From: Desulfobulbaceae bacterium
GTDB lineage: Bacteria; Desulfobacterota; Desulfobulbia; Desulfobulbales; Desulfocapsaceae
Assembly (NCBI GenBank): GCA_004796425.1
Contig: QZLB01000039.1
Span: 1-51,843, forward strand
Length of the DNA: 51,843 bases
Reading direction: 5' to 3'
Part shown: piece after piece, positions 10,068-24,462 of the stretch
Numbering within the stretch: the first letter of the stretch is position 1
How the letters are laid out: every line of letters begins with the position of its first letter
Translations under genes and position numbers: made by a program
The notes under the pieces: generated by a model
Databases searched by the model: none
Told to the model about the DNA's origin: nothing
The model's input: the letters and a program-made list of their open reading frames with translations, nothing else

Positions 10068-11453
10068 TTATTTACAGAGTGCCGCATGTAAGGCGCGCTG
10101 GGCTATGGCAAATTCGTCTCGCTCAACGATAAACTGCATATTGGTCTGGCGTGTTGTTTGCGATACCGCCAGGATATTGATACCATCCTGGGCGAGCGAC
10201 CCTGAGGCCTTGGCCATGATACCGGGTTGAGCGATATTTGAGCCAATGGCACAGACAATCGCCACCGGCCTGGCAGAAATTGTTTCAAACTTATCGGACA
10301 GTTCAGCCACCAGATGGGGGTTACAATCACTGTCAGTAATGATCAAATCAATGGTGTTGGCATTGGTCACTTTTGAGATGTAGGAGACATTGTGCTTCCT
10401 GAATATCTCCATGATTCTCATATCAAACCCGACCTCACCGACCATCCGTGTATCATGAACCTCCAGACAGGTCACAACATTGGACCCGGTTACGATCTCA
10501 ACCGTTGAGTGCGGTGCGATAAAGTCTTTGGTGATCAGTGTTCCGGGATGATCGGGGTCAAAGGCGTTTTTAACCCGAATTGGAATAGAGGCGATCTCAA
10601 GAGGCTTTGAAGCCTTGGGGTGTATTGCTTCCATCCCCACATCCGCCAGCTGATCAGCTACATCGTAGTTGGTGTTGCAAACCGGGTGAACCTCCTGTTC
10701 TCCCACGGTGAGCGGATCGCCGGAACAAAGATGGTACTCTTTATGGATGATTGCCTCATCGGCATCCAGCAGCACCGCCACCTTTGAGAACGTTACCTCG
10801 GAATATCCCCGGTCAAACTCCCTCATGATCCCCTCGGTGCCTTTGGTGTAGCCGGTGGCGAAGCAGACTGATGAAAACGGATCAATTGAACTGAAACTGT
10901 CTTGAATCCTCCGATCAATTGTCAATTGTCTGCCATCATCCCAACCACTCAAATCGACAAATGTTGCCTCATATCCTCGATTCTGGATAATGTTTGCAGA
11001 ATTGAAGGCACTGTGCATTTCACCCAGGGACGCAAGGAGCTCCCGGGCTGCCAATAACAGCTCTCCCCGCGATACATAACCAGAGGCCAGAACATTATCC
11101 ATTGAGCGGAGAATATTAATTGCCTGGTCAATGCGATCCTCGATAAAATCATTGGCCGCCGGCAAGTCAAGGCCGGCCGAGACAAAACCCTCATTTAATT
11201 CAAATAGCCGATCCCGCAGTAAGAGCATTTTTTGCGGATAATTTTTCTGCTGTTCAAACAGTTCATAAATTCCTGGCTTCCCAGTTTTTTTATGCTCCAG
11301 CAGTTCATTGGTCACTCCGGCATAAGCCGACACCACATACACTCTGCCAAAAACGTCTGCTTCATTGCGAAGAATGATATTGTTAATTATCTCAGGGAAA
11401 CGAGACATTGATGTCCCGCCAATTTTCTCAACACGTAAGTCTTTTCCATTCAT
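10068..11453 (-). CDS. ask: Aspartate kinase, ectoine-operon (Ask_Ect) type
   Basis: 461 aa. It phosphorylates L-aspartate, the first step to lysine, threonine, methionine and, in some bacteria, ectoine. The N-terminus reads VEKIGGTSMSRF where ordinary LysC enzymes have KFGGTS; this, together with VVSAYAGVTNELLEHKKTG, the FDRGYSEVTF block and the IHKEYHL block, is the pattern of the aspartokinases encoded in ectoine operons. Two ACT domains follow, about 335-380 and 395-450 (VCAIGSN), as is normal. No ectA, ectB or ectC is visible here, so the enzyme may serve general amino-acid synthesis or the ectoine genes may lie elsewhere. It is the last gene of the minus-strand block but is separated by 265 bases from the kinase gene at 11719, a gap with no obvious gene or terminator, so it may have its own promoter. 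Confidence 0.88.
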   Translation of the reverse strand: MNGKDLRVEKIGGTSMSRFPEIINNIILRNEADVFGRVYVVSAYAGVTNELLEHKKTGKPGIYELFEQQKNYPQKMLLLRDRLFELNEGFVSAGLDLPAANDFIEDRIDQAINILRSMDNVLASGYVSRGELLLAARELLASLGEMHSAFNSANIIQNRGYEATFVDLSGWDDGRQLTIDRRIQDSFSSIDPFSSVCFATGYTKGTEGIMREFDRGYSEVTFSKVAVLLDADEAIIHKEYHLCSGDPLTVGEQEVHPVCNTNYDVADQLADVGMEAIHPKASKPLEIASIPIRVKNAFDPDHPGTLITKDFIAPHSTVEIVTGSNVVTCLEVHDTRMVGEVGFDMRIMEIFRKHNVSYISKVTNANTIDLIITDSDCNPHLVAELSDKFETISARPVAIVCAIGSNIAQPGIMAKASGSLAQDGINILAVSQTTRQTNMQFIVERDEFAIAQRALHAALCK

Positions 11454-11718
11454 CTGTTATTCCATGCCTATTAACAGCCTGAACCAGCAGAAATGCAGGT
11501 TAAAACTGACTGAAGTGATTTTCTGCAGCGATCGAGTCTCGCTACCAGCTAATCAGAAAAACGTTCTATTCATTATCTGTTGAAAACTGCTACCAGGTAT
11601 TACTGGGGAGTTCACCATACAATTGTTGAGAAGAAAATTCCAGCTCTGAAAACCAATTTCGCCTTAAGGCGCTGGTGATTCTGCAGCAACCGATGCATCA
11701 AAGGACCAAAACAGATTG

Positions 11719-13206
11719 TCAGATCATCTGCTTCTCAATACCACTGACCAGCGGGAAGCTCAGGGTGAACGTGGTGCCAGCTCCGGGTTCGGAATCGACT
11801 TCAATATATCCCTGGTGAGCTTCCACGACCTCTTTTACAAGAGCCAAACCGAGTCCCGAACCACTGATATGACGGGTAGCCTTTCCTTTGACCCGATAGA
11901 AGCGATCGAAGATATGAGGTATATCCTCACTACTGATACCAATTCCCGAGTCCTGGAAATCTAAACTGACAAAGCCACCTGAAACCGCTACGTTGATCGC
12001 AACATTGCCACCATCAGGGGTGTATTTTACGGCGTTGGAAACAATATTCCCAATAGCCGTCCGGATATGATCATAATCGACATTGAACGACCACTCTACG
12101 TCGCTGGGAGTATAATTGATTGTTATGTTTTTTGCCTCGGCTTGCGGAAGTGCGACTTCGACGATTTCTTCAATGATCTGATGCCCGCGCACCGGTTCAA
12201 GATTGAAGACCACCGTACCACTCTCAATTTTTGACAAGTTCAACAGATTATCGATTAATCGCAACAGATCTTTGGTACGCACAGTCATCCTGCCGTGCAG
12301 CTTATTGCAAGAAAATTCGGCTTCATACTTACAATCAACCTGCAGGGCATAGATCATCTGCTCGATCGATGCCAGAGGGGATTTTAGTTCATGCGCCACC
12401 ATCGCGACAAAATCGGATTTCATCCGATCTATTTCTTTGTTGGTGGAAATATCTTCAAAAGTGGTCACCGATCCCATGACATCTCCGGCAGAGGAAAGTA
12501 CCGGTGCACAATGTGCGCGGAGAAACCTTCGCGACACACTGCCCGGCTGAAACTCACGTGAAACAACCGTGCCTCGACCGATGGCTTCATGAACCATGGC
12601 CAGCGCATTGTCATCTGAGATGGAATCTTCAAGCGGTTTGCCGATAACCGGATCTGTCTGAATCTCAAGCAATTTGATTGCCGCCGGATTATGGTGAACC
12701 ACGACTGCGTCGGGATCGGTCACAATAACCGCTTCTACCATACAGGCAAAAACGGTATTCAATCGACTCTTCTCCTGTTGAATCGCAGCCAAACTCAGTG
12801 ATTTTTCCTCTCTGAGTTTTTCCGCTTCTGTTTCGAGGGCCTGCTTTTCGACTGCCCGCTCAACGACAATTCGAATATAATCGGGGGTAAACGGTTTGCC
12901 TACAAAGTCGAAGGCGCCATGCTTCATGGCGGTTACCGCCTTTGAGACCGTAGCAAATCCCGTAACCACAATCACCTGGATCTGCGGTTCATGCTCTTTT
13001 ATCCACTCAAGCACACCAAAGCCATCAATACCGGGCATCATCAAATCAAGCAAAACTACATCAAAGCCATCTTGCTTGATGCACTCTATCCCCTCTTCCC
13101 CACTCTCAGCTTTGGTAATGGTATAGCCTCGACCTGCAAGGGCTCGCTCCACGCCTTCGCGAATAACCTTTTCATCATCGACTATCAGAACTCTCACGTC
13201 ACTCAT
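11719..13206 (-). CDS. REC-PAS-histidine kinase (response regulator/kinase fusion)
   Basis: 495 aa, cytoplasmic. Order: receiver 1-120 (phospho-Asp about 53 in VVLLDLMMPGIDG); a coiled-coil linker about 120-155; PAS about 155-265 (CMVEAVIVTDPDAVVVHHNPAA); HisKA about 275-345 with the H-box FVAMVAHELKSPL; HATPase about 390-490 with the N box NIVSNAVKYT and G boxes DSGIGI and GSGLGLALVKE. A receiver ahead of a kinase suggests that another kinase switches this one on, for example the PAS kinase at 20819. It follows the single-domain regulator (13295) by 88 bases and closes the signalling half of the Hdr/MetF block. No DNA-binding domain is present, so its output must go through another protein. 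Confidence 0.9.
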   Translation of the reverse strand: MSDVRVLIVDDEKVIREGVERALAGRGYTITKAESGEEGIECIKQDGFDVVLLDLMMPGIDGFGVLEWIKEHEPQIQVIVVTGFATVSKAVTAMKHGAFDFVGKPFTPDYIRIVVERAVEKQALETEAEKLREEKSLSLAAIQQEKSRLNTVFACMVEAVIVTDPDAVVVHHNPAAIKLLEIQTDPVIGKPLEDSISDDNALAMVHEAIGRGTVVSREFQPGSVSRRFLRAHCAPVLSSAGDVMGSVTTFEDISTNKEIDRMKSDFVAMVAHELKSPLASIEQMIYALQVDCKYEAEFSCNKLHGRMTVRTKDLLRLIDNLLNLSKIESGTVVFNLEPVRGHQIIEEIVEVALPQAEAKNITINYTPSDVEWSFNVDYDHIRTAIGNIVSNAVKYTPDGGNVAINVAVSGGFVSLDFQDSGIGISSEDIPHIFDRFYRVKGKATRHISGSGLGLALVKEVVEAHQGYIEVDSEPGAGTTFTLSFPLVSGIEKQMI

Positions 13207-13294
13207 CAGACCCTACTCCCAACCACCGTCCATAGCAACCACCGGCAGCCTGATTAAAAGCACCAACCGGTGGTTATCTGGAGGCAATTCCGGT

Positions 13295-13681
13295 TTACTT
13301 CAGCCAGCTCTGGATGCGCTCAAGCAACTCCTGAGGTTCCACCGGCTTCGGCATATAGTCTTCGGCTTCACTCTCAAGCATGTCACGATGCGTATAGGTA
13401 CTGGTGGTGACCCGATCAGCGACTGCGGTCAGGAGAATGATTGGGATTTCTTTTGTCGCTCCATCACCTTTGAGTTTAGCGCAGGCTTCGTGACCGTTCA
13501 TAACGGGCATCATCACATCAAGTACGATCAGATCAGGCTTCTTTTCCGCAACTGCTTCCAAACCTTCCTGGCCGTCATAGGCTACCCGGACATCATAACC
13601 ACCGCTCTCAACGATCACTTTCACTGCTTCAACAAAATCAGGGTCATCATCAATCAGCAGGATTTCCTTTTTTTCTGCCAT
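13295..13681 (-). CDS. Single-domain response regulator (CheY-like)
   Basis: 128 aa, only a receiver domain: IDDDPDF holds the acidic pair, LIVLDVMMPVMNG the phospho-Asp, LLTAVAD the conserved Thr and MPKPVEP the conserved Lys. I place the start at ATG 13679-13681, which is preceded at 5 bases by GGAGGA; an upstream in-frame start at 13732 would overlap metF and has no ribosome site. With no output domain it must pass phosphate on or bind a partner. It lies 43 bases after metF, within the Hdr/MetF block, so it may be a phosphorelay intermediate between the PAS kinase at 20819 and the REC-kinase at 11719, or may act directly on the enzyme complex (inference). Confidence 0.9.
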   Translation of the reverse strand: MAEKKEILLIDDDPDFVEAVKVIVESGGYDVRVAYDGQEGLEAVAEKKPDLIVLDVMMPVMNGHEACAKLKGDGATKEIPIILLTAVADRVTTSTYTHRDMLESEAEDYMPKPVEPQELLERIQSWLK

Positions 13682-13724
13682 ATTCTCCTCCATTAAAGTG
13701 ATGCAGCATGTTGTAAATGGTTCC

Positions 13725-14651
13725 TTATTCAATTACCGGCCGCGGGAGTAATCCTGCGCCACCGATAATCTCATTTAGTTTCTCCTCCCACTCAATCGCC
13801 ATCACGTGTACCCCGGCGATTCCCTCCATCTCCTTGAGCTCATGTATCTGCTCAATGCACATTTCTATTCCTTTTTCAGCTTGCTTTTCCTTGGGTTCAT
13901 CAGCTATTCGCTTGATCACTGCTTCCGGTATATCAATACCGGCAACCATCCGATTCATGAATTTCGCCATACCCGCAGACTTTAAGGGGGTGACTCCTGC
14001 CAATATTTTTATCTTTTCGTGCAGGCCCTCTTTTTTTGCGTCCTCCATGTATTTGATAAAGGTTTCCATATTATAGATACACTGGGTTTGCACAAAATCA
14101 GCACCAGCATCGATTTTCAATTTCAGTCGCGGCACCCGAATGTCATACGGATCTGCAAACGGGTTCACTGCACAACCGATATAAAACTTCGGGGCCCCTT
14201 CAAGTTTCTCCCCAGACGGGAAGACCCCTTCATCACGCATGGTCTTAACCATGTGAATCAATTGCATGGAATCGATATCAAACACATTCTTGGCTTGAGG
14301 ATCATCACCAAATTTCTGGTGATCACCAGACAAACACAGCAGGTTTCTCACCCCAAGCGCTGATGCACCCAGCAGATCTGACTGGAGTGCTATTCGGTTC
14401 CGATCACGCACGACCATCTGAATAAGCGGTTCCACACCGGTTTCCCTGACCAGCATACATCCGGCAAGTGAACTCATCCGCACTACAGAGGTCTGATTAT
14501 CTGTCACATTGCAGGCATCCACATTGTCTTTTACATAGGCTGCCTTTTCCCTCACGACGTCGGGATCAGCCCCTCGCGGGGGACCGCATTCAGCAGTTAC
14601 AGAGAAATGACCCGCAGACAGCACCCGTTCAAGATTGCTTCCTGATTTCAT
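13725..14651 (-). CDS. metF: Methylene-tetrahydrofolate reductase, MetF subunit
   Basis: 308 aa, a FAD-dependent TIM barrel that reduces 5,10-methylene-THF to 5-methyl-THF (or the reverse) in the methyl branch of the Wood-Ljungdahl pathway. Key residues can be seen: Glu21 in TAECGPPR (the general acid corresponding to E. coli Glu28) and Asp110 in CLSGDH (the flavin-contacting Asp of the ALRGD motif), plus the QSDLLGASALG helix. The length is that of the short acetogen-type MetF, without an N-terminal NADH site, so it needs a partner for electrons. It overlaps metV by 1 base (TAATG), strong evidence of translational coupling to the MetV subunit and, through it, to the MvhD-Hdr electron chain upstream. 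Confidence 0.94.
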   Translation of the reverse strand: MKSGSNLERVLSAGHFSVTAECGPPRGADPDVVREKAAYVKDNVDACNVTDNQTSVVRMSSLAGCMLVRETGVEPLIQMVVRDRNRIALQSDLLGASALGVRNLLCLSGDHQKFGDDPQAKNVFDIDSMQLIHMVKTMRDEGVFPSGEKLEGAPKFYIGCAVNPFADPYDIRVPRLKLKIDAGADFVQTQCIYNMETFIKYMEDAKKEGLHEKIKILAGVTPLKSAGMAKFMNRMVAGIDIPEAVIKRIADEPKEKQAEKGIEMCIEQIHELKEMEGIAGVHVMAIEWEEKLNEIIGGAGLLPRPVIE

Positions 14652-15316
14652 TATATCATATCCTCCCTGAGAATACGGCGCGGACCTCCATCACGGGAAC
14701 TGTCCCAGCCTTTATAAGGTTTTATTTTTCCATAATTTTCCATTTGATCCAGAGACTTTAGTCGATCAATTATCAACTGCCAGCCGCACTTCACATCTTT
14801 GGAAATCTCACATTTCCCCTCCACAGATCCGCCGCAGGGTCCATGAAAAATCGACTTGGCACACCGAGTAACCGGGCAGATTCCACCAGTCAAATGCAGT
14901 ACGCAATCACCACATCCCTGACATCGCTCCGTCCATTCTCCCTGGCGCTCGGTAACGCCAAGAAATCCAGTGTTGATACCTGGCAAGATTGGTGTTTTGG
15001 AAAATTTCTCAGCTAGAAACTGGATTCCTGCACCACAGGCAATTGACAATACGGCCTGATACTCCTCCAAGTAGGGCCGCATCAGCTCCAGGTATTCAGG
15101 ATCGCACTGCCGTTCTAGACAGACTTCACGAATTTGCAGATTCTTCCCTTTTGCCTCGCGGGCTAGGCGCAGGGTTGATGAAAGCACCTGGACTTCTTTG
15201 TCACCACCGACCCTGCACACCGTTACACAGCCAAAACACCCGGCAACAATTATATTCTCGTAAGGCTCGAGCATCTCCAACAATTCTTCAATAGGTTTCG
15301 GGGTTCCGGTAATCAT
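14651..15316 (-). CDS. metV: MetV, zinc/Fe-S partner subunit of methylene-THF reductase
   Basis: 221 aa, the 'methylenetetrahydrofolate reductase C-terminal' family. It is very rich in Cys, arranged in sets: CFGCVTVC near the N-terminus (residues 27-34), CLERQC near 66-71, CGAG near 94, CQGCGDC near 137-143 and CPVTRC, CGG and CEISKDVKCGW near the C-terminus. In acetogens MetV forms a tight complex with MetF, bears zinc and Fe-S centres and is the path by which electrons reach the MetF flavin. It overlaps mvhD by 4 bases (ATGA type) and metF by 1 base. The gene order mvhD-metV-metF suggests that MvhD passes electrons to MetV, though the actual contacts cannot be read from sequence. Confidence 0.93.
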   Translation of the reverse strand: MITGTPKPIEELLEMLEPYENIIVAGCFGCVTVCRVGGDKEVQVLSSTLRLAREAKGKNLQIREVCLERQCDPEYLELMRPYLEEYQAVLSIACGAGIQFLAEKFSKTPILPGINTGFLGVTERQGEWTERCQGCGDCVLHLTGGICPVTRCAKSIFHGPCGGSVEGKCEISKDVKCGWQLIIDRLKSLDQMENYGKIKPYKGWDSSRDGGPRRILREDMI

Positions 15317-15765
15317 GATTCAACCTCCTGGACAGGTTGGGAGTTCCCACTCCTGGCTTTATTGATTGGGCTTTGCCCGATAGTGCTGATAATTTCGACA
15401 AACTCGTTTGCAAAGGCGGCAAATTTCGCTCCCTCTCCCGCACTCAGGTTATACATTCTGACCCGATCAGGACCAATTTCGATCTGCTCAAGAATCTGAT
15501 ACACCCGTTCTACCCGGGCACGAGCTCTTATATTGCCATTTACATAGTGACAATCACCCTCAAGGCAACCGACCACCATTACCCCATCTGCACCATTCTC
15601 AAACGCTTTGAGCAAGAGAGACTCATCGATCCTGCCAGTACAGGGCAGCATCACGATGCTAGTTTCCGGAGGATATGACCGTCTTTCCGAACCTGCCAGG
15701 TCCGCTGCGGTATACGCTCAGTGTTTGCAGGCAAAAACGATGATATTGGGTGAAAAATCACTCAT
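15313..15765 (-). CDS. mvhD: MvhD-type hydrogenase/Hdr iron-sulfur subunit, selenocysteine-containing
   Basis: 150 aa if the in-frame TGA at 15718-15720 is read as selenocysteine (residue 16). The sequence before and after it is one continuous MvhD protein: IIVFACKH-U-AYTAADLAG, then the conserved PCTGRID and VVGCLEGDCHY. Most MvhD proteins have CxxC where this has C13-x-x-U16, so the UGA sits at a conserved Cys position; the archaeal homologue VhuD is a known selenoprotein. The start ATG 15763-15765 shares one base with the hdrA stop (TAATG). Without read-through the only start after the TGA, at 15654, would drop the CxxU motif. A SECIS-like hairpin lies right after the TGA. MvhD carries a [2Fe-2S] cluster and links HdrA to a partner, here MetV. 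Sec genes (selA, selB, selC) are not in the window. Confidence 0.88.
15689..15703 (-). promoter_or_regulatory. SECIS-like hairpin downstream of the mvhD UGA
   Basis: On the mRNA, 14 bases after the UGA, GGACC-UGGCA-GGUUC folds into a 5-bp stem (one G-U pair) with a small loop containing GG. Bacterial SECIS elements are short stem-loops at about 10-20 bases from the UGA with a G-rich apical loop bound by SelB; in E. coli fdhF the loop GG lies 19-20 bases after the UGA, here 21-22. The fold was drawn by eye and not computed. Confidence 0.6.
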
Positions 15766-18700
15766 TAGTCCCCTCCATTGACATTTGCATACGCTTTTTC
15801 GTTATATGATTGCAGTTTGGCTGCCAGATTTTTATCTTCGAACCTCCCCATGGAAATGACCTTTGCAGGACATTCTGCAACACAGATTCCACACCCCTGG
15901 CATAATGCCGGATTGATATAAGCGGTATGTTCCTCGTTAATCTCCGGCACCCCATAGGGACATGCCCGTACACACGTGAGACAGACTGCACAATTATCAG
16001 GTTCGACAGTTGAATACACCCCAGACAGTTTCAACTTTTTCTTGGATAAAATGGTCGTTGCCCGGGCCACCGCTGCCTGAGCCTGCGCTATGGTCTCGCT
16101 CACATTCTTTGGACCATGGGCGGTACCAGCCATGAACAATCCCTCACTGGGCAGATCGACCGGCCGAAGTTTGGCGTGAGCTTCAATAAAAAAGCCATGT
16201 TCATTTCTTGGAATTCTAAGCATTGAGGCTAGTTCCTCGGTGTCAACAGGAGTCATTCCTGTTGAGAGTACCAGGATATCAGGGGTAAATTCGATCTGAT
16301 GATTAATTGAAGGATCCACTACAGAAATGGACAACTCATCCTGCGCTGCCTCAACTGCCGGTGGCGCGTTCGCTGGATCATACTGGATGAAATTGATCCC
16401 TGCCAGGCGGGCCTGCCGATAGTCAAGCTCCCCCAGTCCGTAGCATCTCATATCGCGATAGAGGACATCTACCCGGGCCTCGGGGTTGAGTTGTTTTAGT
16501 TTTAACCCGTTTTTGACTGCGTGGTTACAGCAGACCCGTGAGCAGTAATCCAGATGTTCCTCACACCGCGAACCGGCACATTGAATCATAACCACCGAGC
16601 GTAACTCCTGGGCTTGCGTTGGTTCATCGATCAGTAGCTGTTCAAAATCGGTCTGAGTGATGACTCGATCTAATTCGTTTAAACCATAGATGTCTGGCCG
16701 TGATTCAGTTGCTCCGGTTGCCAGCAGTATTGCGCCATGTTTAATAATCCGCGAGCCACCGGTCGGAGTGATGATCTCAGTCTCAAAAGAGCCGACAAAA
16801 CCACCCTGATCAATAACCGCCGCATTGGTAAAAACCTTGATATTCTCATTACCAAGCACCTTCATCTCAAGGCTTTCAAGGAAGGGCGCAAAATCCTGGC
16901 CATCCCAACTTCTCTTCAAGTTTCTCACCTGTCCGCCAAGACGGGGTTGCTGCTCGACCAGATAGACACCAAAACCCTGATCAGCCGCCTCCAGTGCCGC
17001 ACTCATCCCGGCAACACCACCACCGATCACTAACAGACTCGATTCCACGTCGAATTCCAATTCGGTCAACGGTTTTGCCTGGGCAGCGTTCGCCACCGCC
17101 ATACGCATCAACCGTCGAGATTTTTCTGTGGCTTTTTCCGGTTCAGTCGGGTGTACCCAACTGCAGTGGTCCCGGATATTCGCCATATCAAAATAGTATT
17201 TATTCAAGCCGGCCTGCCTCAGGGTGGACATGAAGAGCGGCTCATGGGTTGTCGGCGAACAGGCCGCCACCACAACCCGGTTCAGTTGGTGCTCTTCAAT
17301 GATATCTTTCATCTGCTCCTGGGAATCCTGGGAGCAGGTGTAGAGCGGCTTATCGGTATAAACGACCCCCGGCAGGGTTTGCGCATAGGCTTCCACGTCT
17401 TCAACATCAACGACCGAGGCGATATTGGAACCGCAGTGACAGACAAACACACCAATTCTCAGCTCTTCACCCGGCTCCTCAATTTTTTCTTGTGGCAGTG
17501 TTTCTTCAGAGAGCATCGTACCTCTTACTTTGGCCAGACTGGCAGATGCTGCTTGTGCCGCTCCCGATGCCTCACTTACCGTCTCTGGAATATCTTTGGG
17601 ACCGTTAAAAGCACCGCTGACGTACACTCCGGGCCGCGAAGTGGCCAGTGGTGTAAAACCATCGGTGACCGCAAAGCCAAAACGATCCAGTTCGATATCA
17701 AGCTGCTCTGCCAGCCCTCTGGTTTTATCAGAGACCTGAATCCCAACCGAGAGTACAATCATCTCAAAAGTTTCTACCTGGCGCACTCCGTTTTGATCGA
17801 TATAGCGAACTTCCAGATCATTGCTGATTGGGTCCTCAAAAACCCTGCTGATCATAGCCCGCTGGTATCGAATACCGTTTTCTTTGGCCCGTTCAACATA
17901 GTTGTCGAAGTTCTTGCCAAATGAGCGCATATCGATATAGAAGATGGTCGGTTCAATGTTGGCATCATGTTCACGGGCAATAAATGCTTCCTTGGTCGCA
18001 TACATGCAGCACACTGAGGAGCAATAATCACGGTTGCATGACACATCCCGCGAGCCCACGCATTGGACCCAGGCCACCTTCCGGGGATGACTCCCATCGG
18101 AGGGCCGGGATACAGTTCCCGAGGTAGGACCAGAGGCGGAAAGTAACCGCTCAAACTCTATGGAAGTGACCACATTGGGATATTCCCCATAACCATATTC
18201 ACCCCGAAGTTTTGCATCAAAAACTTCAATTCCCGGTGAGAATATGATCGAGCCGACCTCTATTTCCCGACTGGAGCCGAGCTGCTTGTAATCAATGGCT
18301 CCAACACCGCAGATCGTCTGGCAGGTACCACAGAAGTCGGTATTGAGTTTGACGCAGCTCTCTTCACTAATCACCGGTACACGTGGCACTGCCTGAGGGT
18401 AAAAAATGTTTACCGGTTTTCTCTGATCGAGCCCCTCATTAAATTCATTGAGCAACGGTTGGGGCTCTTTATCCGTGAGTTTATCAATTGCCAGAAAATC
18501 TGTCGGACAGACCGAGATACAGCTTCCGCACACCTGGCATGCATCAAGCTTGACTTCGACACCCTGGTCAGTGAGCTTCAAGGCAGATGGCCCCATTACT
18601 TTGTCACACATGATCGTGCAGAGACCACAACGGATACATCGTCCCCGATCTTCAGCATGTATTTTTTTCAAAACCTCTGATCGTGAGTGTAACGCCACTC

Positions 18701-19397
18701 CGAGACTCTTGTCACCATCGGGCACATCTTCTACTATAACCGCCTGGAATTTCTCCGGACAGGCCACATAGCAGGCACCACAGCCCGTACATTTATCCTG
18801 AATGATTGAGGCAACTTCCTTGCGCTGCCACTGTACAGCCTCGTGCAGACAGGCACGATGGCATAAACCGCATTTTGAACAGAGATCTTCGTCAACCCTG
18901 AAACTCCACTTCTGCTCAGAAGTTGGGCGTGGTGTCAGACTGCTGGTGATGTCCGCTTTTCGCTTGCTTTTCTTTTTAGACTGTTGCTCCTCCTCAACTT
19001 CCGGAGGCGGCTCGGGAAAGTAGGACTGAAAGGAGACTGGGCAAACCATTTCGCACAGGCCACAGCCGGTGCATTTCAAAACATCGACATAGCGTGCGTG
19101 GTTGGCGATTGTGACCGTGAAACGACCCGCCTCGCCTGCCACCGCTTCCACATCACTATGGGTCAACAACTCAATATTGCGGTGTCTGCCGACTTCAACC
19201 AATTTGGGTGAAACGATACACATCGAACAGTCATTGGTCGGGAAGGTCTTGTCGAGTTGGGCCATTTTCCCACCAATGGCCGGTGCAGACTCAACCAGGT
19301 AAACTTTGAAACCCGAATTTGCCAGATCAAGGGCCGACTGCATACCACTGATGCCACCTCCGACGATCATAATTGCGCCAAGCGGATTATCGATCAT
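15765..19397 (-). CDS. hdrA: HdrA-like flavin/Fe-S protein, double (fused) form
   Basis: 1210 aa, about twice a simple HdrA. First module: FAD fold (IMIVGGGISGM, 9-19), the Cys cluster TNDCSMC (55-60), then a series of [4Fe-4S] sites near 109-119 (CTGCGLCEMVC), 173-183, 203-213, 254-264 and 287-297, a further Cys group near 356-363 and CVGSRD...CSSVCC near 446-464. Second module: the HdrA N-terminal domain (VCHCGSNIA, 653-661), a second FAD fold (LLVIGGGVAGM, 788-798), CAGSRCEE and two C-terminal ferredoxin sites (CAVCLTCVRACP and CQGCGICVAECP). HdrA is the flavin centre proposed to bifurcate electrons in Hdr complexes. A Lys/Glu-rich spacer at about 133-150 breaks the first module. It overlaps hdrB by 4 bases and mvhD by 1. 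The doubled architecture suggests two flavins in a single chain. Confidence 0.93.
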   Translation of the reverse strand: MIDNPLGAIMIVGGGISGMQSALDLANSGFKVYLVESAPAIGGKMAQLDKTFPTNDCSMCIVSPKLVEVGRHRNIELLTHSDVEAVAGEAGRFTVTIANHARYVDVLKCTGCGLCEMVCPVSFQSYFPEPPPEVEEEQQSKKKSKRKADITSSLTPRPTSEQKWSFRVDEDLCSKCGLCHRACLHEAVQWQRKEVASIIQDKCTGCGACYVACPEKFQAVIVEDVPDGDKSLGVALHSRSEVLKKIHAEDRGRCIRCGLCTIMCDKVMGPSALKLTDQGVEVKLDACQVCGSCISVCPTDFLAIDKLTDKEPQPLLNEFNEGLDQRKPVNIFYPQAVPRVPVISEESCVKLNTDFCGTCQTICGVGAIDYKQLGSSREIEVGSIIFSPGIEVFDAKLRGEYGYGEYPNVVTSIEFERLLSASGPTSGTVSRPSDGSHPRKVAWVQCVGSRDVSCNRDYCSSVCCMYATKEAFIAREHDANIEPTIFYIDMRSFGKNFDNYVERAKENGIRYQRAMISRVFEDPISNDLEVRYIDQNGVRQVETFEMIVLSVGIQVSDKTRGLAEQLDIELDRFGFAVTDGFTPLATSRPGVYVSGAFNGPKDIPETVSEASGAAQAASASLAKVRGTMLSEETLPQEKIEEPGEELRIGVFVCHCGSNIASVVDVEDVEAYAQTLPGVVYTDKPLYTCSQDSQEQMKDIIEEHQLNRVVVAACSPTTHEPLFMSTLRQAGLNKYYFDMANIRDHCSWVHPTEPEKATEKSRRLMRMAVANAAQAKPLTELEFDVESSLLVIGGGVAGMSAALEAADQGFGVYLVEQQPRLGGQVRNLKRSWDGQDFAPFLESLEMKVLGNENIKVFTNAAVIDQGGFVGSFETEIITPTGGSRIIKHGAILLATGATESRPDIYGLNELDRVITQTDFEQLLIDEPTQAQELRSVVMIQCAGSRCEEHLDYCSRVCCNHAVKNGLKLKQLNPEARVDVLYRDMRCYGLGELDYRQARLAGINFIQYDPANAPPAVEAAQDELSISVVDPSINHQIEFTPDILVLSTGMTPVDTEELASMLRIPRNEHGFFIEAHAKLRPVDLPSEGLFMAGTAHGPKNVSETIAQAQAAVARATTILSKKKLKLSGVYSTVEPDNCAVCLTCVRACPYGVPEINEEHTAYINPALCQGCGICVAECPAKVISMGRFEDKNLAAKLQSYNEKAYANVNGGD

Positions 19398-20257
19398 ATG
19401 ACCTCCTTGCTGTTGTGAGCAGCAGATGACATGACTTTGGCAAGGATCTCAGCAGAAACCAGATGACTTTTTTGCTGTTTTTCCGGATACGTACCCTCAA
19501 AGGCAGCAAGGATCAGCTCGGTTGCAAAAAAGACCGGCAAAGGCTCCTGTCCCTCAAGTTCCATCTGCCTGCTCTCAACGTTTGCCTGACACATCGGGCA
19601 ATCGGTGACCAGCGCCTCAGCCCCCGCTTTTTTTGCCGCCCCGACTATATCAGACACCAGTTTTACTGCAATATCGGGTCGGGCCATGGTCAAACTGCCG
19701 GAACAACATTCCGTGCGATGTGACCAGCGCAGAGGAGTCGCACCAATTGCCTCTACGATTCGCTCCAGAGATTTGGGCTGTTCGTAATCAGGCGCATCGG
19801 TTATTCGTGGGTTACGCAGAGATAAACAACCATAGTAGCAAGCACATTTCAGATCAGCCAGGGGCTGTTTCACCAGTTCCGTGATCCTTGCTCTGCGTTG
19901 TTCTGAGGCAAGAAAACGACTGATATGCAAAATCTCAAAATCCGGTTCATAACAATCGACATCCCAATAATCTGGATTATCCCGAAGGCTCTTGTCGGCC
20001 GCCTTCATCCGCTGAAAACACGCCGCACACGGCACCAGAATGTCGTGACCCGAAGTCATGGAAAGGAGTAGATTTCTCATGGGTAGCCGCACACCCACCT
20101 CGTGATTTGTCATATGGGCTGATGATGCACCGCAGCAATTCCAATCGGTTATCTCTTCCAGTTCAATACCGAGCCTGGTGCAGACTGCAGTAACCGAACG
20201 GTCATAGTCTGCCGCGGTTCCTTTTAATGAACAGCCTGGATAATAGGATAGTTTCAT
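19394..20257 (-). CDS. hdrB: HdrB-like subunit with two CCG cysteine domains
   Basis: 287 aa. Two cysteine-rich CCG domains are complete: YYPGCSLKG, DWNCCGASS and PCAACF in the first half; CACYYGC, ECCSGS and DCPMCQAN in the second. In methanogen HdrB such domains hold two non-cubane [4Fe-4S] clusters where the CoM-S-S-CoB disulfide is cleaved. A bacterium would not use that substrate, so the acceptor here is unknown; in the MetFV-HdrABC-MvhD arrangement HdrB is expected to exchange electrons with some other small thiol or protein partner. Length and spacing are normal for HdrB. Overlaps of 4 bases with both hdrC and hdrA show tight translational coupling. Confidence 0.94.
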   Translation of the reverse strand: MKLSYYPGCSLKGTAADYDRSVTAVCTRLGIELEEITDWNCCGASSAHMTNHEVGVRLPMRNLLLSMTSGHDILVPCAACFQRMKAADKSLRDNPDYWDVDCYEPDFEILHISRFLASEQRRARITELVKQPLADLKCACYYGCLSLRNPRITDAPDYEQPKSLERIVEAIGATPLRWSHRTECCSGSLTMARPDIAVKLVSDIVGAAKKAGAEALVTDCPMCQANVESRQMELEGQEPLPVFFATELILAAFEGTYPEKQQKSHLVSAEILAKVMSSAAHNSKEVI

Positions 20258-20817
20258 CGTTCATACTCCTTTCCTTTACCCGAGAAGATGTTCCGGATTT
20301 GGTCTTTACCCTTTATCGGGTGGGGCAACAGTTTCAGCTTCCTTTTGGAAAACATCTGCCAGCCCAGTTTCATGTCAGAGGTCAAATCACCTGAGCGCAA
20401 TTTATAACCAGCGATCAAACCGACTTCGTAAGCTCTTCCCCAATGTCGTATTGAACCAAGGAATGAACGATGAAACAGCTCAATCCCGGGCTCAGATGGG
20501 GCGACACCCTTCCTGATTGCAAGCTCTCTAAGAACATCCATCAGCACCGCGATATCAATCTCGTTTGGGCAACGTGTTGCACAGGTTTCACACGCTGCGC
20601 AGAGCCAGATTGTCTTGCTGTTTATCAAGACCTCCTCCATGCCGTAAGCTGCCATCCTGACCACCTCCATTGTGGTCAGATCGAAGAACTCTGTTACCGG
20701 GCACCCCGCCGAACACCGACCACATTGGAAACAAGCGCTGACGTCGATATCCATCGCCTCGATTTTGGCAAGAAATTTGCGATTCCCCTGTTCTGGTGAA
20801 ATAGCTTTTCCGGTCAT
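20254..20817 (-). CDS. hdrC: HdrC-like iron-sulfur subunit
   Basis: 187 aa. Two [4Fe-4S] ferredoxin motifs are plain: CFQCGRCSAGCP near residues 29-40 and CAACETCATRCP near 73-84. HdrC carries electrons between HdrA and the catalytic HdrB. The C-terminal half (SFLGSIRHWGRAYEVGL) is the helical tail usual for this family; it has no membrane segment, so the complex should be soluble. It begins one base after the stop of the PAS kinase (TGA-C-ATG), which ties the kinase into the same transcript. Confidence 0.94.
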   Translation of the reverse strand: MTGKAISPEQGNRKFLAKIEAMDIDVSACFQCGRCSAGCPVTEFFDLTTMEVVRMAAYGMEEVLINSKTIWLCAACETCATRCPNEIDIAVLMDVLRELAIRKGVAPSEPGIELFHRSFLGSIRHWGRAYEVGLIAGYKLRSGDLTSDMKLGWQMFSKRKLKLLPHPIKGKDQIRNIFSGKGKEYER

Positions 20818-20818
20818 G

Positions 20819-22369
20819 TCAATTCTCCTCTAGCGAACTGGCAACTGCAGGAAAGCGAAGGGTGAATGTTGTTCCCTTCCCCTGTTCCGATGAAACGCGA
20901 ATGGTCCCCTTATGCTCCTTCACAATGGCATAGGAAACCGACAATCCAAGCCCGGTACCTTCTCCGGTGGTTTTGGTTGTGAAGAACGGATCAAATACTT
21001 TTTCAAGATGTTCCTCGGCAATACCTACGCCGCTGTCTTTAATGATAATTTCATTCACACCGCTGTTGGCCCGGGGTCTGGTAATGATTTGCAGTGACCC
21101 CTCTCCTTCCATGGCCTGTGCTGCATTTACCAGTAAGTTCATCACCACCTGATTAAAGCGAATGGCATTACCAAGCGACGGTAACAGCTCCGGTGACAGA
21201 TTGAGCGTCACCGAGATATTATGGTAGAGTGGCTGGTTTTGCAGGATACCGAGCGTCTTCTGAACCACTTCATTAAAGTTAATAGGAACCATTTCATAGC
21301 TGGTCTGATGAGAAAACTCGAGCAGATCTGCAACAATAACCTTGCAACGTTCTGCTTCACTGATAATGGTATCGAGATCGTCACTCACCTGGTGGTCGTC
21401 TCCCAACTCCTCTTTGATCAGATTCGCATAGAGCATGATCCCGGACATCGGATTATTTATTTCATGTGCAACACCGGCTGCTAGCCTGCCCAGTCCCGCC
21501 ATTTTCTCAGACTGCATCAGCATATTGTGAGTCTGCTCCAGATCCTCCTCTATTTTCAAAATTGCCCGAAGGTCGGTAAAGATCCCGAAGGTGGCGACCT
21601 CTTTCTCGTTGTCATAAATAATACCGCCTGAAAAACGTACGGGGATATCGTGTCCATCCCGGTGTCTGACGCTGATTTCATGGTGCAGCAGTTTTCCTCG
21701 CCCTCCGAATTCATCACTTCTCATCCGACTGATAATCTGATACGCCATATCCTCACGATAAAGCTTGGTCACATGGAAACTTTCAAGACCATCAAGGTCC
21801 TCCTCATAACCAAGCAAAGACAAGGCGGCGTCATTGAAAAGAATTATTTTACCACTCATATCAGCAGCAATAATGCCATCGACTGAGGAATTGATCAGAT
21901 TATTGAAAAACGAGTTCCTTCTTCTGAGCTGCCCCTCCAAACGTTTTCTTTCAGTAATATCAATAAGGTAAAGTAGATAATAATCCGGGCGGGCGGGTGG
22001 ATACATCAACACGGCATCGAGTATGGTTTTCTCGTCCGCGCCTGTCTCCAATTGAATCTCATGCCTGATTCGATTTCGTTGAATCTCCGTAAGGTTATCA
22101 AAATACTGACCGATCTGGTAATAAAACCACTGGTTTTCCGGTCCCAGCAGAACTTCCAGACTGGTATCAAGTATACCGCGATGGAGGACACCGAGTAACC
22201 GGTTGGCAGCCGGATTTGCATAGAGTACCCGATGGTCAAGACCGACAACCATGACCCCATTGGGGGTCTCGTCAAGTATCTGGTAAAGGTAGAGATGAGA
22301 GCCGAGCTCACCGGTAACCTCTGGCAGACTCTTGCGGAGCGGAGATCTTTCGTCGTCGCTTTTCTGCAC
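20819..22369 (-). CDS. PAS-PAS sensor histidine kinase
   Basis: 516 aa, soluble. Two PAS domains, about 25-145 ([25 protein letters not shown]) and 150-275 ([22 protein letters not shown]), HisKA with the H-box [10 protein letters not shown] near 300-310 and HATPase near 390-510 ([24 protein letters not shown]). No receiver. The start is GTG 22367-22369, 6 bases after the stop of the MetF-like gene, with GGTAGG just upstream. The position between a MetF-like gene and hdrC, with 6-base and 1-base gaps, makes it part of the Hdr/MetF operon. Its phospho-partners are probably the receivers at 13295 and 11719, also in this block. What it senses is not known; a folate, flavin or redox cue would fit (inference). 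Confidence 0.92.
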
Positions 22370-22375
22370 CGTTGC

Positions 22376-23251
22376 CTACCGTTCGATCAAATCCAGTAAT
22401 TCGGTTATCCGCTCTCCCCAGCCCAGGGCAAGAAGCACCACGCCATCGCTGAGTTCAGCCAGTTCCTGCATGAATTCCGCCGCAACCCCGACACCGGACA
22501 TTTTTTTATCCGGGGACTGCATCATCTTCTTCAAGAATTCCTGAGGGACTGAGGGGACACCGGCCAGATTATTCAGATAACGGATCATCGTAACCGATTT
22601 CAAAAACATTAGAGATGTTAACAACTTAATCCCGGTCTGCTCTGCAAATGGCACAAATTGTTCAACGATATTGATATCGTACGTCGGACCCAGCGTTACC
22701 GAAGATACACCAAAGCTTTGCAGTTGGATGAAATACTCTGCCCGTTCACGATTAAGGTTCACATCATCGGAGAGCTCGAGATAAACGCCAATATCAAAAT
22801 CGGTTGCCCCTTCCAATGGTTCCCCCGCAAGGTCTTTGCCCTGATTCATCATTGAGGCGCATTTAAGCATCGTCGCCAGATCCAAATCACCACTGGAACG
22901 GGCAACCGGCTGATCACCTTCGGTAGGATCATGACCTTCTTTGATCACGATATGTTTAATTCCCATGGCCGAGGCACAGAGGAGATCGGCCTGGAATGAG
23001 ATGCGATTGCGATCCCTGCCGTTAATTATCATAGTTGGCGTCACACCTTTCTCCAGCAGTGCCAGGCATGGAGCAAGCGGTGACATCCTCATGATTGCAT
23101 GTTCCCCATCGGTTACCCGAACACTGTCTACTCTTCCTCTCACCCGCAGTGCGTTGTCAAGAAATGAGTCAAGTCTGGTTCCTTTCGGTGGGTCTATCTC
23201 AGCTATCAGCCTGGTTTGCTGGGGAGGGATACTGCTCTTGTCAGCTTCCAT
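22376..23251 (-). CDS. Divergent MetF-like protein
   Basis: 291 aa. It belongs to the methylene-THF reductase family: Glu18 in AEIDPPKG matches the general acid, and NGRDRNRISFQADLLCASAMG is laid out exactly like the same segment of the true MetF at 13725. Where MetF has CLSGD110H, this protein has IKEGH107D, so the flavin-contacting Asp is replaced by His when the segments are aligned from the preceding Gly. The second half is also quite different. It may bind folate or flavin without being a normal reductase. It is the first gene of the minus-strand block (ribosome site AGGAGG) and is followed at 6 bases by the PAS kinase. A role as a sensor or auxiliary subunit is inference. Confidence 0.82.
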   Translation of the reverse strand: MEADKSSIPPQQTRLIAEIDPPKGTRLDSFLDNALRVRGRVDSVRVTDGEHAIMRMSPLAPCLALLEKGVTPTMIINGRDRNRISFQADLLCASAMGIKHIVIKEGHDPTEGDQPVARSSGDLDLATMLKCASMMNQGKDLAGEPLEGATDFDIGVYLELSDDVNLNRERAEYFIQLQSFGVSSVTLGPTYDINIVEQFVPFAEQTGIKLLTSLMFLKSVTMIRYLNNLAGVPSVPQEFLKKMMQSPDKKMSGVGVAAEFMQELAELSDGVVLLALGWGERITELLDLIER

Positions 23252-23892
23252 TGAACCTCCTGTTGTTGGTTGAAATTCCGAATAATATATTTCAAAACAT
23301 CTCAGGGTCGTTCAATCGGAGCAACCTCGTCTGCTCCGGGAAACAACTTCAGACCAATCATTGCAATTGGTATTCAGATCGTCTCTATGTGGGATGCGCA
23401 CGGTGGCACATCTTTTCTTTATCCCTGCAGGACTCTTTGTGCGATATGGCGCTGTGTCTTACACACCCCCTGTTACGGGATGCTATATTTCAAATGGGCA
23501 ACTGCTGAAAACTGTCCCCATGAATAATTCAACAAAGCGTTCATGATGATGACCTGCTGACAAATGCTATACCTGCGTCAGTCGGTGCTTTTTCGGTCCG
23601 GCCGCGATCCATCTACACCTGGGAGACCGGATAACCCCTTAAATATTCAGATAATTTGATTTTAAGGTTAAGGCTAACTTATATTACTGTCACAGGGTGC
23701 CTCTTGTCAATCACCGAAATAAAAAAATCAGCAAACCAAACTCACTCTAATCGTCTAACGATCTAATGGAAAAAGAGCGGCGTCATAATGAAATCATATG
23801 ACAGTGGCACAGATGCGCAGTATCATAGAGCATCAGTCGATCGTCCAACAGAATCGAGGTCCTTGAGATCTCAAACTCAGGAGTAACAGAAG
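23252..23892. other. 641-base divergent intergenic region with palindrome at 23353-23371
   Basis: This is the longest gene-free stretch here. It separates the MetF-like/Hdr block (minus) from the flavoprotein gene (plus) and should hold both promoters. It contains ACCAAT-(7)-ATTGGT at 23353-23371, related to the tight palindrome at 1880-1892. Small open frames on the plus strand near 23270-23546 overlap each other, lack good ribosome sites and look like chance. A TGGCAC near 23801 lacks a GC at the right distance for sigma-54. No structured RNA class was recognised. Confidence 0.35.
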
Positions 23893-24462
23893 ATGAATGT
23901 TGTGGTAATTAACGGCAGTCCAAGAAAAAACGGTAATAGTGCCAGCCTGGCAGATACTCTCGCCTCAACCCTGCAAGACAAAGGTGCAGAGGTAACTTCA
24001 CATTTCCTTAACAGCCTTAGCTACCGTGGCTGCCAGGCCTGCCAGGCCTGTAAAATAACCAGTAAGAAATGCATCCTTAGAGATGACCTGGCTGTGGTTC
24101 TTGATGATTTTTATCATGCGGACATCGCGGTTCTTGCCACCCCGGTCTACTGGGGAGAGGTGAGTAGCCAGATGAAGGGATTCATCGATCGACTCTATTC
24201 ATTCCTAACCCCGGATTTTATGACGGCAGAACGCAAACATCGACTCCCGGGAGGAAAGAAACTTGTCTTCATTCAAACCCAGGGAGCAGCTGACGATTCG
24301 ATGTACCGTGACATATTCGAGCGATATAATGGGTTTTTCGAGAAAATCGAAATGTTTGAAGCGGTCTACTTCATGCAGGGATCTGGCCTGAGTCAGCAAT
24401 CTGAACTGGATACACGACCAGATCTCTATGACAAGCTAGCCACAATTGCAGCACAATTATAA
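23893..24462 (+). CDS. Flavodoxin-fold / iron-sulfur flavoprotein-like NAD(P)H reductase
   Basis: 189 aa. The N-terminus VVVINGSPRKNGNSASL is the FMN-phosphate loop of the NADPH-dependent FMN reductase family. A Cys cluster C47-x2-C-x2-C-x6-C60 (GCQACQAC...KKC, then RDDL) matches the compact motif of iron-sulfur flavoproteins (Isf), which bind a [4Fe-4S] cluster close to FMN. TPVYWGEVSSQMKGFIDR is the second flavin loop. Proteins of this kind are electron carriers or remove oxygen and peroxide in anaerobes; the substrate here is unknown. It is divergent from the Hdr/MetF block and 137 bases ahead of the zinc-ribbon gene, which appears to have its own promoter. Confidence 0.87.
   Translation: MNVVVINGSPRKNGNSASLADTLASTLQDKGAEVTSHFLNSLSYRGCQACQACKITSKKCILRDDLAVVLDDFYHADIAVLATPVYWGEVSSQMKGFIDRLYSFLTPDFMTAERKHRLPGGKKLVFIQTQGAADDSMYRDIFERYNGFFEKIEMFEAVYFMQGSGLSQQSELDTRPDLYDKLATIAAQL

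Follow-up and report, generated by a model that had tools for sequence, protein, structure and literature searches.

A MetFV-HdrABC-MvhD reductase locus in Desulfobulbaceae that may carry its own phospho-signalling module

Some anaerobes can run the methyl branch of the Wood-Ljungdahl pathway either way, and how they set its direction is, to our knowledge, an open question. A locus from a sulfur-cycling Desulfobulbaceae bacterium, a member of a phylum important for carbon and sulfur cycling in sediments, raises it in concrete form. Within a stretch of 51,843 nucleotides (contig QZLB01000039.1 of assembly GCA_004796425.1, positions 1 to 51,843; hereafter the window), the genes of a methylene-tetrahydrofolate (methylene-THF) reductase complex form one tight string with two histidine kinase genes and the gene of a stand-alone receiver protein, termed REC. 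Do these signalling genes belong to the enzyme? The locus has a conserved gene content and order, its REC belongs to a receiver family that lies mostly beside metF, and the phospho-acceptor and kinase motifs are intact, which suggests that the methylene-folate reductase complex is under dedicated phosphate-signal control. As a family dedicated to methylene-THF reductase loci, these receivers are a concrete candidate for setting the direction of the methyl branch.

The block occupies positions 11719-23251 of the minus strand, where ten genes overlap or lie 1-88 bases apart. In the order of transcription, preceded by a promoter candidate, they are:

23681..23710, minus strand: weak sigma-70-like promoter candidate TTGACA-18-TAATAT, some 430 bases ahead of the first gene
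22376..23251, minus strand: metF-like, encoding MetFL (291 amino acids), of the methylenetetrahydrofolate reductase (MTHFR) family (PF02219, 41.9 bits), lacking the GD and TQ motifs of MetF
20819..22369, minus strand: sensor kinase PAS-PAS-HisKA-HATPase by domain matches, 516 amino acids, GTG start, conserved H-box
20254..20817, minus strand: hdrC (TIGR03290 at 72 bits, short of the cut-off of 160; Fer4_8/Fer4_17)
19394..20257, minus strand: hdrB, with two CCG stretches (PF02754; TIGR03288 at 112 bits, short of the cut-off of 345)
15765..19397, minus strand: hdrA, encoding a double HdrA of 1210 amino acids with two flavin adenine dinucleotide (FAD) regions and several 4Fe-4S stretches
15313..15765, minus strand: mvhD with an in-frame TGA at 15720-15718 (PF02662 on the part 3' of the TGA)
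14651..15316, minus strand: metV (PF12225, 117 bits)
13725..14651, minus strand: metF (PF02219, 148 bits), GD and TQ motifs kept
13295..13681, minus strand: REC, a stand-alone CheY-like receiver of 128 amino acids (PF00072 only) and a member of the metF-linked REC family
11719..13206, minus strand: kinase REC-PAS-HisKA-HATPase by domain matches, 495 amino acids, with an orthologue in each of 30 complete loci of the same bacterial family

From metF-like to the REC-PAS-kinase gene, the successive gaps are 6, 1, -4, -4, -1, -4, -1, 43 and 88 bases (negative values are overlaps). A preliminary description of this DNA, made from its letters and open reading frames, had delineated the same ten-gene string; every gene was recovered where it had placed it, the spacings of 43 and 88 bases before the two trailing regulators included. 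Its assignment of the core also holds: metF, metV, mvhD, hdrA, hdrB and hdrC lie adjacent on one strand, and by this gene content the complex is the methylene-THF reductase MetFV-HdrABC-MvhD. A terminator between metF and the regulators, which that description had named as evidence against a shared system, was not seen: the metF/REC and REC/REC-kinase gaps hold no minus-strand terminator-like site, and the sole one found in 11300-24000 lies inside the PAS-kinase gene. Promoter-like sites in the region number 16 compared with 13.9 in shuffles, hardly above that background.

The association of receiver and reductase extends far beyond the window. In a phylum sample of 296 genomes, MetV (identified by PF12225) is present in 225. 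Eighty regions were scored with profiles built in this analysis, and 87 metV hits comprised 80 usable metV-metF pairs, five truncated ones and two without metF. A same-strand receiver follows metF within 400 bp in 43 of the 80 pairs, namely in 40 of 62 with hdrA upstream versus 3 of 18 without hdrA. At least 152 receiver-domain matches occur in the 4.4 Mb of the source genome (150 of 164 candidates scored), and the chance expectation for a same-strand receiver within 400 bp is about 0.7% per gene end. Because so few would be expected and 40 of the 62 hdrA-linked pairs have one, the linkage of REC and metF is far beyond chance. In a tree of 133 receivers, which rests on a short alignment with some long branches and unsettled bootstrap values, the 60 metF-linked receivers need 4 label changes versus 44.0 in shuffles.

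The linked receivers also constitute a recognizable family. A profile of 18 metF-linked receivers, run over the 296 genomes with 14 candidates per genome scored, yielded at least 105 matches at 145 bits or more, after which the next match drops to 135. Members are stand-alone proteins with open frames of 127-205 amino acids (two contain an internal TAA), spread over 85 genomes and 33 families, and are confined to metV-bearing genomes (85 of 225, versus 0 of 71 metV-negative ones). Sixty of the 105 lie about 1.0-1.8 kb after a metV of the survey. The other 45 were examined in 39 further regions and in L083, L112 and L156 (L numbers label the surveyed loci), and 39 of them are linked within 8 kb to metF, metV or a metF-like gene, in some cases just to a gene fragment where the contig stops; in total, 99 of 105 members lie within 8 kb of such a gene. 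Members in L182 and L185 are cut at contig ends, the latter next to a 24-bit metF fragment. In the window and L072-L200, which comprise 92 loci with 95 members, the gene directly before REC is metF in 67 cases, metF-like in 5, a kinase in 7 and another family member in 4; nothing lies within 450 bp in 10 cases, and a contig edge intervenes in 2.

Kinases accompany these receivers. More than 5 kb of sequence flanks 51 of the 95 members on each side; for 47 of these 51 a kinase lies no more than 9 kb away, two or more kinases are present for 31, and 40 show the REC-kinase arrangement. The 41 hdrA-metV loci with long flanks contain REC and kinase in 29 cases, REC alone in 2, kinase alone in 2 and neither in 8, which places a kinase in 29 of 31 REC-bearing loci versus 2 of 10 REC-less ones (Fisher p = 2e-5, relatedness ignored). 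In the ten metV loci without hdrA, REC occurs in none and a kinase in three. The check that the preliminary description had proposed thus came out in its favor: kinases and receivers accompany the complex across the family and the phylum, beyond chance.

Within the window's own family, the entire block is conserved. A metF-like query over 257 genomes of the order retrieved relatives at 60-77% in 41 other genomes, all of this family, and wherever metF-like and metF share a contig they lie about 8.4-8.9 kb apart. All ten genes, each at least 54% identical to its counterpart, are present in 30 of the 42 loci from these genomes; the remaining 12 are cut by contig ends, among them L076, which lacks the REC-kinase despite more than 6 kb beyond REC. 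Median identity to the window is highest for metF (86.7%), REC (85.9%), metV (84.2%) and mvhD (76.3%), followed by REC-kinase (71.3%), metF-like (70.3%), hdrC (68.4%), hdrA (68.1%), hdrB (65.9%) and PAS kinase (63.5%). The HisKA domains of REC-kinase and PAS kinase reach medians of 84.0% and 86.6%, the first PAS domain of the PAS kinase 47.3%, and the REC domain of the REC-kinase 75.8%, below the value of the stand-alone REC.

What kind of enzyme would such a module serve? The GD (LSGDHQ) and TQ (TQCIYN) motifs of the window MetF align with those of solved MTHFR, and both are kept in all 132 aligned MetF proteins. In MTHFR, these motifs contain folate-binding residues. In MetFL, GH and LG stand in their places, and a comparison with the solved MTHFR sequences gave no match at E<=1; among 114 metF-like or diverged MetF proteins, 71 carry neither motif and 26 carry both. 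Because residues that bind folate by MTHFR enzymology are missing, MetFL is probably not a normal reductase. HdrA is matched by each of five solved HdrA sequences (643-671 amino acids) in four stretches. The mvhD gene would encode only 113 amino acids under the standard code, starting 110 bases after hdrA; its true frame opens on the hdrA stop (ATG at 15765) and passes through a TGA in the context FACKH-U-AYTAADLAG. This codon is TGA in 37 of 37 same-family loci (a count that includes the window and has one region twice), and in 76 other loci it is TGA in 32 and Cys in 29, with 15 not resolved by the pattern. Because the in-frame TGA is conserved and the source genome carries both a selenocysteine (Sec) tRNA, tRNA-Sec (73.8 bits, above the cut-off), and SelB, MvhD is very probably a selenoprotein. 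As a candidate Sec insertion sequence (SECIS) element, a 7-pair hairpin is predicted 3' of the TGA, with a stability (z = -0.06) no better than that of shuffles. The preliminary description had mentioned neither the in-frame TGA nor the double-HdrA architecture. Excerpts of earlier work report a Sec-containing MvhD for D. multivorans (PMC5109826) and for Desulfobacterium autotrophicum (PMC2702500).

The regulators carry the hallmarks of two-component signalling, i.e., HisKA with an H-box, HATPase, and a receiver with the acidic pocket, Asp, Thr and Lys, and the phospho-site residues D11, D12, D55, T85 and K112 are invariant in 18 aligned RECs. An AlphaFold2 model of REC has a receiver fold (mean predicted local distance difference test score 81.8, with low confidence in the loop of residues 89-94), and the 50 matches listed in a fold search with this model consist almost wholly of ordinary receivers such as RR468, RpaA and PhoB. 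REC is a single-domain response regulator, a receiver without an output domain. The highest 19-residue hydropathy is 1.16 in the PAS kinase and 1.77 in the REC-PAS-kinase, with no likely membrane span in either, and the PAS-PAS-HisKA-HATPase kinase is, judged from its sequence, probably cytoplasmic. A DNA-binding output domain, as in transcriptional regulators of the NtrC or OmpR type, is absent from the matches listed for the ten block proteins (for four of them, the best 25 in NCBIfam).

The simplest reading makes REC, on which the two kinases would converge, the output, with the MetF-MetV part or the metF-like subunit as its partner; the REC gene is tied to metF rather than to a fixed kinase position. 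In such a scheme, the PAS kinase and the REC-PAS-kinase would set the phosphorylation of REC, and the REC domain of the second kinase would let the first one talk to it. Phosphorylated REC would then dock, after translation, on the MetF/MetV (or MetF-like) part, and docking would tune how fast, in which direction or with what electron coupling methylene-THF and methyl-THF are interconverted. That REC controls the enzyme directly is our best guess. The proposal as a whole, a Sec-containing MetFV-HdrABC-MvhD complex with a phospho-signalling module of its own whose phosphorylated REC acts post-translationally on the enzyme, is a tentative one that we regard as quite possibly correct while stopping short of expecting it to be so.

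Several observations weigh against this proposal. The REC profile was seeded with metF-linked members, which builds in part of the linkage; neither the score gap nor the lack of members in metV-negative genomes obviously arises in this way. Four of the 105 members (L186, L188, L194, L196) lie in regions devoid of metF, metV and metF-like genes, a context that could point to another partner, and some lie 2.5-3.5 kb off or on the opposite strand (L170, L179, one in L187). Neither the window nor L034-L158 showed REC fused to a core subunit, and no long open reading frame occurs among the 105 members. Of 76 RECs followed by more than 4 kb of sequence, five lack a kinase within 9 kb, and the eight hdrA-metV loci noted above, together with a further locus of the source genome (C48), manage without REC and kinase. 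Stand-alone REC and the kinase REC domain are similarly conserved across families (mean identity 56.7% versus 55.2% in 29 loci); as evidence of binding, REC conservation is strong within the family and not across families. AcsB was not found in the source genome. Because 80 of 93 genomes of the family have AcsB, this absence is probably an assembly gap, and the pathway is probably Wood-Ljungdahl.

Transcriptional control is a serious rival. Here, the kinases would drive transcription of this or other operons via regulators encoded elsewhere, for which any of the receiver-domain proteins of the source genome could serve as output, and REC would be a phosphate sink or relay step. A sigma54 survey, made with one query protein and covering this regulator type, revealed NtrC-type REC-sigma54 regulators at 12 places, 11 of them in REC-family loci (11 of 92 loci), which counts against direct enzyme control; seven are on the REC strand (L093, L132, L149, L151, L164, L168, L182) and four on the other (L129, L135, L187, L194). 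Receiver-less PAS-sigma54 activators occur in L072, L089, L101, L136, L155, L037, L040/L066 and L110; at the second locus of the source genome and 4 similar loci (56-60% identical), they lie divergently upstream. Because such regulators lie near related loci, the kinases may have a DNA-binding output in some lineages, and in other lineages a separate activator may drive transcription of the operon. The window gave no sigma54 match in this one-query search, and REC is a separate conserved family that directly follows metF far more often than it follows a kinase. On balance we hold this alternative to be less likely than not. The preliminary description had argued from the lack of a DNA-binding output in the block that the target might be the enzyme itself; the lack is confirmed for the ten proteins, whereas the argument is weakened by sigma54 regulators near related loci. 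Its idea that kinase and receivers sense and tune the redox state or flux of the complex stays conjectural.

Information might also flow the other way, with the kinases reading the enzyme's redox or ligand state, perhaps via MetF-like, which may have lost folate reduction, and phosphorylated REC reporting to motility, respiration or another system. In favor of this, MetF-like lacks the GD and TQ motifs, comes first in the operon and lies 6 bases from the kinase, and in five of the 95 cases REC directly follows metF-like rather than metF. No obvious motility or respiration partner, however, recurs among the clustered neighbors, of which ten recurrent or odd ones were named by family search, and we judge this reversal improbable. 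Least probable, to the point that we would be surprised by it, is chance or passive conservation of regulators that merely share an operon. Operons can pass down whole, the loci of the family share ancestry, and no count is corrected for relatedness; yet conservation persists in 33 families despite altered gene order, with REC placed behind metF, behind metF-like or behind a diverged metV-metF pair and kinases up- or downstream. REC and kinases are moreover present or absent jointly, and chance predicts so few receivers at a gene end.

The source genome itself contains both types of locus. A diverged second locus (C177, also L072) holds metF-like, hdrA, mvhD, metV, metF, REC, an ACT-like gene and a PAS kinase before the contig end cuts it. 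It also encodes an HdrC-HdrB fusion (L072:2373-3700) whose HdrB part contains an in-frame TGA (NTE-U-GH), a further candidate for Sec. C48 comprises hdrA-mvhD-metV-metF without receiver or kinase in the 19 kb read, next to NADH-dehydrogenase-like and formate-dehydrogenase-like genes named by eye.

Further genes recur around members of the REC family. The commonest extra gene among the clustered non-core neighbors, which still include some antisense open reading frames, encodes an ACT-like protein (about 340-350 amino acids, mostly a weak ACT match), found in 20 loci as the next same-strand gene after REC, e.g., at L072:10245-11300. A shikimate-dehydrogenase-like gene (about 271 amino acids), so labelled from one named member of its cluster, occurs in 10 REC-family loci (L121, L129, L135, L169, L176, L177, L181, L183, L184, L187), a CdhD-like gene (PF03599) in one (L174:1206-2153), and a flavoprotein with NADH_4Fe-4S and Pyr_redox domains lies at L144:16629-18584, in a cluster that spans 10 loci. 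In the window, a divergent NADPH-dependent FMN reductase or flavodoxin-like gene lies upstream of the block (23893-24462). The adjoining aspartate kinase gene (10068-11453) is not part of the block; it recurs near one same-family locus only, L048.

How does this locus compare with known systems? Judged by excerpts of the open-licence literature, the MetFV-HdrABC-MvhD complex is known from Moorella and has been seen in other phyla (PMC5736913, PMC7325909, PMC6085437). Moth_1191-1196 of Moorella thermoacetica, named in PMC5736913 and PMC7325909, comprise the same six kinds of subunit; by description rather than by sequence alignment, the locus reported here differs in its two kinases, REC, metF-like, 1210-amino-acid double HdrA and Sec-type MvhD. 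An HdrABC adjoining metF has also been described from syntrophic sulfate reducers (PMC10553843). In the Chloroflexi single-cell genome DscP3, metF_1 of the hdrABC-mvhD-metVF locus is flanked by a putative two-component system, 'phoBR' (PMC5736913), which may represent this module in a different phylum, as judged from one sentence on one genome. For Desulfobacterium autotrophicum HRM2, a figure legend on the hdr loci names a response regulator, a histidine kinase and a CheY-like regulator (PMC2702500); its hdr/mvhD loci pair Sec-containing MvhD and HdrA with regulators near hdr genes, and excerpts of this account neither tie the regulators to metF nor take up their recurrence. Excerpts of PMC4046663, PMC5109826, PMC7117923 and PMC10213532 name no regulator link for such loci. 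The enzyme complex is therefore known, and the signalling module has, in these excerpts, been remarked on only in passing, twice. The preliminary description's view of an undescribed system stands insofar as these sources give no full account of the module, and yields to the 'phoBR' remark and the HRM2 legend insofar as the module had been sighted before. The closest precedent for the proposed mode of action comes from Myxococcus xanthus, in which the phosphorylated single-domain regulator EpsW activates the enzyme EpsZ, as proposed by contact (PMC12802240). The system described here would involve another class of enzyme and another kinase system, with contact that is only inferred. If REC does act on the reductase, a core redox enzyme would join the short list of enzymes controlled by stand-alone receivers.

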